64,000 bases of DNA, taken from positions 1 through 64,000 of the forward strand of contig JAJTYR010000007.1 in NCBI GenBank assembly GCA_021463505.1. Direction: 5' to 3'. Shown here piece by piece: positions 555-6,729 of the stretch. A program made the translations under genes and the position numbers. How positions within the stretch are numbered: position 1 is the stretch's first letter; each line of letters opens with the position of its first letter. This DNA comes from Burkholderiaceae bacterium (GTDB taxonomy: Bacteria; Pseudomonadota; Gammaproteobacteria; Burkholderiales; Burkholderiaceae_E). The notes below the pieces were generated by a model. The model was not told where the DNA came from, made no database searches, and saw only the letters and a list, made by a program, of their open reading frames with translations.

Positions 555-1549
555 CGGCCGACCACCTCGCGCGCTACGGCGACGACGTTCGCGACCTGCG
601 GCAATGCGGCATCCTCGAGGTGCTTCGGGTAGGGGATCGGCACTTCGGCGCTGCACACGCGGGCCAGCGGCGCGTCGAGGTCGTAGAACGCCTGTTCGAC
701 GATCAGCGCCATGATCTCCGCGGCGAGACTGCAGGTCTTCCAGCCCTCGTCGACCACCACCGCGCGGCGCGTCTTCGCGACGCTGGCGATGATCGCCTGC
801 TCGTCGAGCGGGCGCAGCGTACGCAGGTCGAGCACCTCGGCGTCGATCCCCTCGCGGGCGAGCGCTTCGGCGGCTTCGAGGCACTTGGGCAGCGATCCGC
901 CGTAGGTGATCAGCGACAGCTGCGTGCCCGGCCGGCGCACCGCGGCGTGATCGATGTCGACCGCACCGGCACCGGCATCGAGCTCGCCCTCCATCGGCAG
1001 CAGCATCGCGTGTTCGAAGACGATCACCGGGTCGGGATCCTGCAGTGCGGTCCACAGCATGCCGCGCGCGTCGGCCAGCGTCGCGGGCGCCACCACGCGC
1101 AGGCCCGGCACGTGGGCGTACCAGACCTCGAGGCTGTGCGAATGCTGCGCCGCCAGCTGCCGGCCGGCGCCGGTGGTCATGCGGATCACGACCGGCACTT
1201 CGATCTGCCCGCCCGACATGTGGCGCAGCGTTGCCGCGTTGTTGACGATCTGGTCGAGTGCCAGCAGGCTGAAGTTGACCGTCATCACCTCGACGATCGG
1301 CCGCATCCCGTTGATCGCCGCGCCGATGCCCGCGCCGACGAAGCCCGATTCCGACAGCGGCGTGTCGCGAACCCGCGCTTCGCCGAACTCCTCCAGCAGC
1401 CCCTTGCTGACCGCGTAGGTGCCGCCGTAGCGGCCGACGTCTTCGCCCATCAGGAACGCCCGCTCGTCGCGTGCAAGCGCTTCGCGCAGCGCCTCCCGCA
1501 GCGCCTCGCGGTAGGTGGTGCGCACGGCCGCATTCACGACCGCGCTCAC
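551..1549 (-). CDS. 2-oxoacid dehydrogenase E1 component, beta subunit
   Basis: This is the 332-residue beta subunit of a heterotetrameric thiamine-diphosphate E1 (PdhB/AcoB/BkdA2 family). It combines the pyrimidine-binding transketolase domain (residues about 1-175; GEDVGRYGG near 35 carries the conserved Glu) with a C-terminal transketolase domain (about 200-325, including DLRTLRPLD). With the alpha subunit it decarboxylates a 2-oxoacid and passes the acyl group to the E2 lipoyl arm. It overlaps E1 alpha and E2 by 4 bases on either side. Betaproteobacteria usually carry the single-chain AceE pyruvate dehydrogenase, so this alpha/beta type may serve acetoin or another 2-oxoacid. That is inference. 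Confidence 0.93.
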
Positions 1550-2546
1550 GATCGCGCCCCGGGCGTTGGCGCTGCGCCAGGCAGGGGTGCGCGCACGTAG
1601 ACGTCACGCGCCAGTTCCTCGACCGGCTCCAGCGTTCCGGCCTCGGCGAACGCCACCGCGGCGTCGATCTCCGCGCTCACTTCGCGCTCGATGACCGCGA
1701 CGGCGTCCCCGTCGAGCCATTCGTGCTCGAAGGCCGTGCGCATCAGGCGGTCGATCGGGCAGCGCTTCCTCCATTCGGCGACTTCGGCCTTGTCGCGATA
1801 GAGTTCTGGGTCGAACATCGAGTGGGCGCGGAACCGGTAGGTGCGGAACTCGACGAACACCGGGCCTTCGCCGGCACGCACCGCCGCCACCGCGTGCCGC
1901 GTCGCCTCGCGCACCGCGAACACGTCCATGCCGTCGGCCGACAGCGCCTGCATGCCGCAGGCGCGTACGCGCCCGCACAGATCCACGCTCGATTGCGAGC
2001 GCGCGAGCGCAGTGCCCATCGCGTACAGGTTGTTCTCGCACAGGAACAGCACCGGCAGCTTCCACAGCGCAGCGAGGTTGGCGGATTCGTGGAATTCGCC
2101 CTCGGCCATCGCGCCTTCCCCGAAGAAGCAGGCGGCGAGGTGGTCGGTGCCGCGCATCTGCTCGGCCAGCGCGAAGCCGGCCGCCAGCGGCAGCGCGCCA
2201 CCGACGATCGCGTTGCCGCCGAAGAAGCGCCGCGAGACGTCGAACAGGTGCATCGAGCCGCCGCGCCCGCCGCTGCAGCCTTCGCGCTTGCCGAACATCT
2301 CGGCCATGATCGCGCCGGCGGGTACGCCGCGTGCGAGCGCGTGGCCGTGCTCGCGCCAGGTCCCGAGGATGCTGTCGTCGGCGCGCAGTTCGGGCATCGC
2401 CCCGACGGCGACGGCTTCTTCGCCGATGTACAGGTGCAGGAAGCCGCGGATCTTTCCGGCGCTGTAGAGTTCGGCGCACTTCTCCTCGAAGCGCCGGATG
2501 CGCAGCATCTGCCGGAGCAGATGCCGGGCGTCGTCGCGCGCGAGCG

Positions 2547-4536: not shown

Positions 4537-4814
4537 ATTTTAATCTAAATGCTAAAGAACCTGCTTGCCTCGTCAACGTGGCAGCGCATCCGTGTGGGTG
4601 GCGGTTGCCTTCGACGCCGCCGTAGCGTGGCATTCCGAGTCCACTTCGTTGCATGTCGGCACGGCGGTACGCCTGACTGCCCGTCGACCCAGCGTACGCC
4701 TGGTGCTGGCTGTGGACGAGATCACGGTGGCTGCCGGCACAGCAGCCTGGACGGGCCACGCGGGCGCCCAGGCACGCAGTGCCGCTGGAGTGACCCGGCC
4801 CCACAAGGCAACAG

Positions 4815-4835
4815 CCCAGCAGGGTCACTGCTGGG
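4815..4835 (-). terminator. Hairpin downstream of tRNA-Asn, probable terminator
   Basis: CCCAGCAG and CTGCTGGG form a perfect 8-bp stem around a 5-base loop, starting 29 bases beyond the CCA end of the tRNA. There is no good U-run, so it may act as a processing barrier or an imperfect terminator. Flanking GGCAA/TTGCC could extend the stem. Confidence 0.45.
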
Positions 4836-4863
4836 CCGATTGCCTGCCACACAGGGCTAATCT

Positions 4864-5172
4864 TGGCTCCCCGACCTGGGCTCGAACCAGGGACCTGCGG
4901 ATTACAAGTGCCCGGAAGTTTCCAACCGGCTTGGACTTTCTCTTCGCCCTGGCCAACGATCCGCTTGCGCGCATCGCCTGCGTTAGGCGCACCCCGTAAA
5001 GTCTCTACACATGCCCGGCGTCCGTCCGGAACGTCCGCCTGCTTGCTCGGGATTGCCTTAGCGCATCGCGCCTTAGGGTTCCCCGAATTAGGGATGTTTT
5101 CACCACCCGGTTTCCCGGGTGGGCTGCCATTGAGTCAACAGTCCGTCGCTCTACCGACTGAGCTATCGGGGA
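4864..5172 (-). tRNA. tRNA-Asn(GUU) interrupted by a group I intron
   Basis: The two exons join to a 76-nt tRNA including encoded CCA. The 5' exon (5172-5138, 35 nt) carries the 5' acceptor strand TCCCCGA, the D arm GCTC/GAGC and the 5' anticodon stem ACGGA, ending CTGT. The 3' exon (4904-4864, 41 nt) begins TAATCC and carries the T arm CCTGG-TTCGAGC-CCAGG, acceptor TCGGGGA, discriminator G and CCA. The joined anticodon loop is CTGTTAA, giving GUU for asparagine. The first pair of the anticodon stem would be an A-C mismatch. Between the exons lies a 233-nt insert with a full group I intron core. Whether another, uninterrupted tRNA-Asn exists elsewhere in the genome cannot be seen. Confidence 0.92.
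4905..5137 (-). ncRNA. Group I self-splicing intron in the tRNA-Asn anticodon loop (IC3-like)
   Basis: The insert reads as a compact group I ribozyme. P1: exon CUGU pairs with intron GCAG, leaving the U-G wobble at the splice site. P2: CCACCCGG/CCGGGUGG capped by GAAA (5122-5103). P3: CAUCCC (5096-5091) with GGGGUG (4995-4990). P4: UCGGGG (5086-5081) with UCCCGA (5052-5047). P5a: GCGC/GCGC. P7, the guanosine site: GACUUU (5003-4998) with AAAGUC (4939-4934). A P9.0-like CAAG/CUUG pair precedes the terminal G at 4905. The core closely follows my recollection of the Azoarcus tRNA-Ile intron, including GUGUAGAGACU and CCUAAG...GGCAA...CGAG.CAAGC. There is no endonuclease ORF. Confidence 0.9.
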
Positions 5173-5182
5173 ACAAACGGCG

Positions 5183-5212
5183 ATTCTAGCGTGAGATCGG
5201 ATGCGCTGTCGA
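5183..5212 (-). promoter_or_regulatory. Candidate sigma-70 promoter of tRNA-Asn
   Basis: On the minus strand TCGACA (5212-5207) and TAGAAT (5188-5183) are separated by 18 bases, and the -10 ends 10 bases before the first base of the tRNA. Spacing and position suit a tRNA promoter, but both boxes deviate from consensus. Confidence 0.4.
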
Positions 5213-5520: not shown

Positions 5521-6729
5521 CTACCCCTCGATCACCGCCGCCATGGCCTTCGCGACGTTGTCGATGTTGCCGCTGTTGAGCGCCGCCAGGCAGATGCGGC
5601 CGGTGGCCACCGCGTAGATGCCGAACTCGTTGCGCAATCTTTCGACCTGCGCCGGGTTCAATCCCGAGTAGGAGAACATCCCGCGCTGGCGGGCGACGAA
5701 GGAGAAATCCTGCGCGACGCCGTTCTCGCGCAGCTTGCGCACCAGGTCTGTGCGCATCGCGCGGATGCGCTCGCGCATGCCGGCGAGTTCCTTCTCCCAG
5801 AGGTAGCGCAGCGCCGGTGTCGACAGCACCGCGGCGACGATCGCCGCGCCGTGAGTCGGCGGGTTGGAGTAACTGGTGCGGATGACGCGCTTGACCTGGC
5901 TGATGACGCGCGCGGTCTCGTCGCGGTTGGCGGTGACGATCGACAGCGCGCCGACGCGCTCGCCGTACAGCGAGAACGACTTGGAGAAGGAACTGGAGAC
6001 GAAGAAGTCGAGGCCGGACTGCGCGAACTTGCGCAGCGCCAGCGCGTCGGCCTCGATGCCGTCGCCGAAGCCCTGGTAGGCCATGTCGAGGAACGCGACC
6101 AGGTCGCGTTCGCGTACTGCTTCGACCACCGTATCCCATTGGGCGGCATCGAGGTCGACGCCGGTCGGGTTGTGGCAGCAGGCGTGCAGCACGACGACCG
6201 AGTGTGCCGGCAGCGCCTTCAGCGTCGCGAGCATCGCGTCGAACCTGACGCCGTGTGTCGCGGGGTCATAGTACGGGTAGGCATGCACCGCGTAACCGGC
6301 GGCCTCGAACAGCGCCCGGTGGTTCTCCCAGCTCGGGTCGCTGATCCAGGCCTGTGCATCGGGATACAGCCGGTGCAGGAAATCGGCGCCGATGCGCAGC
6401 CCGCCGGTGCCGCCGAGTGCTTCGAAGGTCGCCACCCGGCCTTCGGCAAGCAGTGGCGAGTTGGCGCCGAACAGCAACTGCTGGACCGCCTGGTTGTAGG
6501 CAGCGAAGCCCTCGATCGGCAGGTAGCCGCGCGCCGGAGCGCTGGTGATGCGTGCCTGCTCTGCTTCGCGCACCGCGGCGAGCAGCGGGATGCGGCCGGT
6601 GTCGTCGCAGTAGACGCCGACGCCGAGATTCACCTTGTGGGTGCGTTGGTCAGCATTGAAAGCTTCTGTCAGGCCGAGAATCGGATCCCGGGGCGCCATC
6701 TCGACGGTGGCGAACATCGACTGGCTCAT
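5521..6729 (-). CDS. tyrB: Aromatic amino acid / aspartate aminotransferase
   Basis: This 402-residue class I pyridoxal-phosphate aminotransferase of the AspC/TyrB family moves amino groups between glutamate and aspartate or aromatic 2-oxoacids. Family features are HACCHNPTGVDL (about 182-193), the Schiff-base lysine in SSFSKSFSLYGERVG (Lys about 251), and a C-terminal substrate Arg in ATGRICLAAL. Length and the MFATVEMAPRDPILGL opening are typical. It lies divergent from uvrB, an arrangement I associate with Burkholderia-type genomes. Distinguishing AspC from TyrB by sequence alone is uncertain; TyrB is the usual label in this position. Confidence 0.88.
   Translation of the reverse strand: MSQSMFATVEMAPRDPILGLTEAFNADQRTHKVNLGVGVYCDDTGRIPLLAAVREAEQARITSAPARGYLPIEGFAAYNQAVQQLLFGANSPLLAEGRVATFEALGGTGGLRIGADFLHRLYPDAQAWISDPSWENHRALFEAAGYAVHAYPYYDPATHGVRFDAMLATLKALPAHSVVVLHACCHNPTGVDLDAAQWDTVVEAVRERDLVAFLDMAYQGFGDGIEADALALRKFAQSGLDFFVSSSFSKSFSLYGERVGALSIVTANRDETARVISQVKRVIRTSYSNPPTHGAAIVAAVLSTPALRYLWEKELAGMRERIRAMRTDLVRKLRENGVAQDFSFVARQRGMFSYSGLNPAQVERLRNEFGIYAVATGRICLAALNSGNIDNVAKAMAAVIEG

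Follow-up and report, generated by a model that had tools for sequence, protein, structure and literature searches.

A 64,000-nt stretch of Burkholderiaceae DNA, here called the window, contains a tRNA-Asn(GUU) gene at 5172..4864 (-) that is interrupted by what sequence comparison confirms to be a real group I intron. We predict with high confidence that it is a self-splicing, ORF-less intron in the anticodon loop of an apparently single tRNA-Asn(GUU) gene. The kind of element is known, but the tRNA-Asn host and the site between positions 35 and 36 are apparently undescribed in the open-access literature that we searched. The bacterial tRNA introns thus gain a host tRNA and an insertion site that are apparently undescribed.

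The interrupted gene and the intron core

The gene (4864..5172, -) encodes its own CCA (4864-4866). Its 5' exon (5138..5172, -) comprises tRNA positions 1-35 and ends in GACTGT, and its 3' exon (4867..4904, -) comprises positions 36-73 and begins with TAATCC. ARAGORN identifies the joined exons as tRNA-Asn(gtt), as it does for all 14 Burkholderiales loci that were joined in this way (window included), and the window exons match a Neisseria record in two pieces, with 100% identity over 74 nt. The original prediction described a good tRNA-Asn marred by one A-C pair in the anticodon stem. The A27/C43 mismatch is real and the joined exons are normal, but the mismatch is ordinary: a standard 27-43 pair occurs in none of the 13 aligned intron-bearing genes (window included), and A27/C43 also occurs in three intron-less tRNA-Asn genes of the genus. 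In the L206/L063 carrier, the tRNA-Asn acceptor begins with G, which produces a G1/A72 mismatch.

Upstream is a sigma-70-like promoter, TCGACA-18-TAGAAT (5183..5212, -), with 10 of 12 consensus bases (0.1 such sites expected in shuffled sequence); TTCGACA precedes tRNA-Asn in 10 of the 13 aligned genes. A possible terminator hairpin (4814..4836, -) was picked out by eye, and no terminator-like site at the locus satisfied the rule of the terminator scan. Default ARAGORN missed the tRNA-Asn and called a tRNA-Ser as the sole tRNA of the window. Thus, some draft genomes may be recorded as lacking tRNA-Asn. The intron mode of ARAGORN found the gene, although with a 218-nt intron at position 38; this boundary was set aside because it breaks the omega-G rule.

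The intron is 233 nt long (4905..5137, -), begins with T(U) and ends with G. Its length, coordinates and strand are all as originally described, as are a P1 that ends in U-G and the P7 pairing GACUUU/AAAGUC. The internal guide GCAG (5124..5127, -) forms P1 with the exon sequence CUGU (5138-5141), with U-1.G at the splice site, and is invariant in 13 of 13 genes. P2 (5103..5122, -) is a hairpin of eight pairs with a GAAA loop, and four of the eight pairs show changes on both sides. The P3 strands, CAUCCC (5091..5096, -) and GGGGUG (4990..4995, -), are supported by both of the alignments described below. Within the P4-P5 domain (5047..5086, -), P4 pairs 5082-5086 with 5047-5051, and compensatory changes in P4 and P5 occur across 104 introns. 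The P5 internal loop (-) has CCUAAG (5072-5077) opposite UAAGG (5056-5060), which we take to resemble the 11-nt tetraloop receptor. Both alignments are also consistent with P6/P6a/P6b (5009..5046, -), the 5' strand of P7 (GACUUU, 4998..5003, -), P8 (4945..4989, -) and P9 (4912..4929, -), which has a GAAA loop and, in the window, two U.U mismatches. The 3' strand of P7 (AAAGUC, 4934..4939, -) is invariant in the 13 genes, and the letters of the omega G, the last intron base (4905..4905, -), were checked. The window therefore has the features by which a group I intron is recognized: U-1.G in P1, the omega G, a P4-P6 and P3-P9 core, and the P3/P7 pseudoknot.

A permissive Rfam scan (601 bases against 4227 families) matched RF00028 at 5148..4912 (-) with 36.2 bits and an E-value of 1.3e-7. 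The covariance-model search proposed at the outset thus yielded a group I score, albeit one under the RF00028 gathering score of 50, which is a curation threshold rather than a biological feature. The intron is absent from the default Rfam scan for this reason. In the 3.58-Mb draft genome it is the only RF00028 match (E 1.9e-7).

We drew the P1-P9 model by hand and evaluated it in the window gene and those of 12 relatives. In these 13, 96.4% of cells are paired, versus 31-44% when the strands are slid, and 14 pairs show changes on both sides (40 cells). On four of five covariation measures the model scored above every one of 500 shuffles; on the fifth, further pair types, 28 of the 500 scored at least as high. 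As P1, P4, P5 and P7 do not vary across the 13 genes, their support (P1 apart) comes from a wider, sequence-made alignment of 104 less redundant introns from Asn, Ile2, Thr, Leu, Arg and Lys tRNAs. There, 93% of core-helix cells are paired, versus 32-44% for slid strands, and changes on both sides are seen in 24 of 30 core pairs, including pairs of P3, P4 and P7. The fifth pair of P7 is U-A in the window and in 9 of the 104 introns and A-U in 91; the sixth forms in 59. With the RF00028 match, this covariation bears out the claim that the insert folds into a group I P1-P9 structure. Across the 13 genomes, core helices are kept and exons are nearly invariant, whereas loops are divergent. GCAGC occurs in the first 20 nt of 54 of 64 Asn introns of at most 350 nt, among the matches listed, versus 2.5% of single-base shuffles.

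These data bear on the possibility that the insert is of some other, non-group I type, either excised by proteins or retained. Nothing positive points to such an insertion: the minimum-energy fold lacks P3-P7, as expected of a pseudoknot-free method, while the RF00028 match, the covariation and the wider intron set all argue against it and make it extremely improbable. No shuffle in 100 folded as stably by energy (z -3.23). As energy-only folding allows no pseudoknots and cannot form P3/P7, it was left out of the structure evidence.

Insertion site and probable reliance on splicing

The window junction is ambiguous by one T and can be read (slashes marking the boundaries) as GACTGT/T..G/TAATC or GACTGTT/..GT/AATC. 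We place the insertion after U35 (GU/U), inside the anticodon, because the base before a group I intron is U and the intron's own last base is G. Departure after U36 would be compatible with the window letters, and position 36 is the one used by most other isotypes in a separate sample of introns. The intron would then end in U, however. Moreover, 86 of 99 related Asn introns, among the matches listed, start with a base other than T, so that for these only insertion after 35 restores the tRNA, bearing in mind that the pattern used to find them itself demanded G before TAATC and so had the omega G built in. We consider exit after U36 most improbable and retain the U35 boundary.

The separate sample comprised 38 loci (8 of 14 matches and the best 30 of 70), of which 34 were assigned to a tRNA and four had no tRNA. 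Isotypes were assigned from stems, in place of ARAGORN voting on joined flanks, which gave noisy isotypes; genes with a CAT anticodon were taken as Ile2 from features regarded as diagnostic. Among the 34 assigned, introns after 36 are in Ile2(CAU) (21), Thr(UGU) (4), Arg(CCU) (1) and Lys(CUU) (1), and those after 34 are in Leu(UAA) (4). The three Asn introns, after 35, are alone at their site. The four tRNA-Thr(UGU) loci and the one tRNA-Lys(CUU) locus with introns after 36 (L215, L217, L220, L223 and L226) are from the same class.

Splicing would begin with the exon end CUGU paired to the guide GCAG, which puts a U.G pair at the splice site. In the precursor, the bond between U35 and the intron would be attacked by a P7-bound guanosine, and the freed U35 would then attack after the omega G. 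The anticodon halves would be ligated, giving the junction GACTGTTAATCC, after which the usual enzymes, together with RNase P, would complete the tRNA-Asn.

The genome apparently has no tRNA-Asn(GUU) gene other than the interrupted one. The draft genome comprises 120 contigs and is estimated to be 97.7% complete. Anticodons were read for all 39 of its tRNA matches and no other tRNA-Asn is among them; the exon-1 pattern, with up to three mismatches, occurs once. The 39-tRNA list likewise lacks tRNA-Ile(GAU) and tRNA-Ala(UGC), which implies that some tRNA genes are missing from the draft; a second tRNA-Asn may be among them. If this is the sole tRNA-Asn, reading of every AAU and AAC codon depends on splicing.

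The missing tRNA genes, together with the RF00028 score below the cut-off, could suit a dead intron in a pseudogene, the asparagine tRNA being encoded by another gene that the draft lacks. Several observations weigh against this: the lack of a second tRNA-Asn among the 39 matches, the promoter-like site upstream, and the combination of near-invariant exons, kept core helices and divergent loops across 13 genomes. In addition, a search of 74 genomes of the family found the pattern of an intact tRNA-Asn in none of the 13 carriers (12 in the genus and one in another). We therefore regard a dead intron as very unlikely, and favor a functional, self-splicing one.

Distribution and descent of the tRNA-Asn introns

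Twelve of 18 genomes of the genus carry the intron, three have an intact tRNA-Asn at the same place and three have neither. The proposed search of related genomes for tRNA-Asn group I introns was thus productive. The window ORF at 5521-6729 presumably encodes an aminotransferase-like protein, and the same ORF lies near tRNA-Asn in all three genomes with intact genes and in 11 of the 12 split relatives, with no match beside L202. The cultured Zeimonas arvi CC-CFT501 carries a 214-nt homologue of the window intron on contig10, the same intron as on contig 10 of the relative G057. As G057 shares the window's genus and Z. arvi belongs to the Burkholderiaceae, the betaproteobacterial host that was read from the letters is upheld. 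In the order sample, the omega-G pattern occurs in 3 of 399 genomes; two are in the window's genus and the third (L199) has a tRNA-Asn intron of another lineage. A further genome of the genus (G069, locus L042) has a 722-nt RF00028 match of 66.2 bits at 1501-2222 (-), in a 23S rRNA gene.

A scan of an 84,980-genome collection for the 3' half of the split gene returned at least 115 stretches, and for 99 of the 115, among the matches listed, the 5' half was also found, placing an intron at the same tRNA-Asn site. The other 16 were left out: six have the 3' exon less than 120 nt from the end of the stretch, four are contiguous tRNA-Thr-like genes and six are unresolved. Among the 99 listed are 22 Pseudomonadota (12 of them the genus relatives), nine Omnitrophota, three Cyanobacteriota, two Bacteroidota, two with the assigned name Myxococcota, and one each from Planctomycetota, Margulisiibacteriota and Bdellovibrionota. 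Most of the remaining loci belong to CPR lineages or are unplaced. Introns at this site thus occur in at least about nine broad phyla, counting CPR names as one, although single odd placements (e.g., L058) may be misbinned because most carriers are metagenome-assembled genomes (MAGs).

Forty genomes of the 99 listed were tested with RF00028. A match falls at the tRNA-Asn place in 37, and 32 of these are over the cut-off. The location check covered the best 80 matches; the three insertions without a match, one of which, L067, falls in the clade of the window, are in genomes that had none in the full search either. RF00028 matches ten times in the 0.9-Mb genome of L071 (G837), a CPR bacterium of the Uhrbacteria.

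The suggestion of a new host tRNA holds insofar as no tRNA-Asn host was described in the open-access literature searched. The insertion is not peculiar to the window genome, as it is common to 99 of the 115 stretches, among the matches listed, so that "new" is to be read only as not described in the literature searched.

We inferred a tree from 98 Asn introns and 25 others (123 in all). Twelve duplicate Burkholderiaceae loci, the three close relatives L200, L204 and L209, 6 of the 21 Ile2 introns and 16 viral introns were left out of the trees. The sample is biased, in that Asn introns were gathered by pattern over all genomes and the others came from one family and one class. For seven host labels (the window's group having a label of its own), the tree requires 7 changes versus 33.9 in shuffles. 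The window falls in a clade of 16 Asn introns with support of 100/99, a set that was defined once the first tree had been seen. This clade also takes in two other Betaproteobacteria MAGs, two Deltaproteobacteria MAGs (named Myxococcota), an Omnitrophota single cell with an HNH-like ORF (L151), and a Bacteroidota MAG on a long branch (L116). A single clade of all Asn introns was neither recovered nor rejected (AU p 0.206).

Relation to known introns, probable mobility and phage-like contigs

The L2 and L9 loops of subgroup IC3 introns are GAAA, and P8 and P5 hold the receptors. GAAA occupies L2 and L9 in 13 of 13 genes of our alignment. P5 and P8 have receptor-like CCUAA...GG motifs, found by eye, that depart from the IC3 receptor letters. 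The intron of the Azoarcus pre-tRNA-Ile(CAU) (IC3), which has a P3-P9 core and GAAA L2/L9 loops like those of the window, is, with other Ile2(CAU) introns, likewise small and located in the anticodon loop. The Ile2 introns of relatives share the P3-P9 core and have GAAA in L2 and L9, in line with the likeness to Azoarcus noted at the start. The window intron differs from the Ile2(CAU) introns in its tRNA-Asn host, in its insertion after 35 rather than 36, and in its guide, GCAG rather than the GGUG type; in the tree it groups with Asn introns (the 16 rows supported at 100/99). The tRNA-Leu introns are also group I introns in the anticodon loop, but the four in our sample are inserted after 34 and branch elsewhere.

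Accessible portions of the literature report tRNA-Ile2 introns in Acidovorax and Burkholderia, as well as fMet introns (PMC8450103), and cyanobacterial introns in Arg, Gly and Lys tRNAs besides Leu and fMet (PMC5733544). Group I introns also interrupt some tRNAs of circular CPR genomes (PMC8172020). Many of the Asn introns reported here are likewise from CPR bacteria, but the accessible part of that paper names neither isotype nor site, and its genomes are not betaproteobacterial. Introns of tmRNA, known from 21 phyla with LAGLIDADG genes in a few, have a tRNA-like host and the same U-1 and omega-G rules, but according to the portion available are inserted in the T-loop instead (PMC11915505). 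No source in the open-access literature searched, in the portions accessible, lists tRNA-Asn among the bacterial hosts of group I introns, and subscription papers and supplements lie outside that search; the accessible parts of PMC4033280, PMC11809585 and PMC8155191 do not name it as one. Five candidate prior reports (PMC1924603, PMC6145125, PMC3888941, PMC3634792 and PMC7373986) were rejected because both terms are present in the accessible text but unlinked.

Many longer Asn introns encode a small protein: an ORF of about 110 aa with a CxxC...HH motif is present in 30 of the 35 longer ones (30 of the 99, among the matches listed). Three of these HNH-like ORFs match Pfam HNH with E-values of 0.0009-0.006, which do not reach its cut-off, and the top match of one in a PDB sequence search is a group II maturase (E 0.0033). 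As relatives at the same site hold this small ORF, homing into tRNA-Asn is probably how the Asn-intron family spreads. The window intron, at 233 nt, is too short for such an ORF and hence encodes no homing endonuclease. A search of the 18 genomes of the genus with the L151 HNH-like protein, run without a positive control, gave no match; given this and the sub-cut-off Pfam scores, homing is unsupported for the window copy, which was probably inherited within the genus. We lean slightly toward a broader proposal: that group I introns have a widespread, undescribed home at U35/U36 of tRNA-Asn(GUU), both in phage-like contigs and in bacteria, among them CPR, Omnitrophota and Betaproteobacteria, and that they may have been spread between phyla by a small HNH endonuclease, encoded in the intron, that targets the anticodon loop of tRNA-Asn. 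Gain, loss and homing can be tested at this one site with Z. arvi as a cultured carrier, together with genus members that lack the intron and relatives that have HNH-like ORFs.

The split-gene pattern was also found in 20 stretches of IMG/VR, 16 of which have a split tRNA-Asn. RF00028 matches at the split gene in all six contigs scanned of these 16, two of them below the cut-off. Ten proteins from four contigs were tested, and RIIA- and RIIB-like proteins were identified in L258. These IMG/VR carriers are putatively phage-like contigs. Phage introns known when PMC3984707 was published were in protein genes, and the term Asn is absent from its accessible text. Among named phages, partial matches occur in four records. 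Six IMG/VR contigs (L250, L251, L252, L253, L258 and L259) have further tRNA genes beside the intron-bearing tRNA-Asn. Also present in two of them are RF00028 matches that overlap the tmRNA models RF01851 and RF04321 (L251 2056-2392 and L258 4016-4352). Both contigs have the same matches, perhaps a tmRNA intron.
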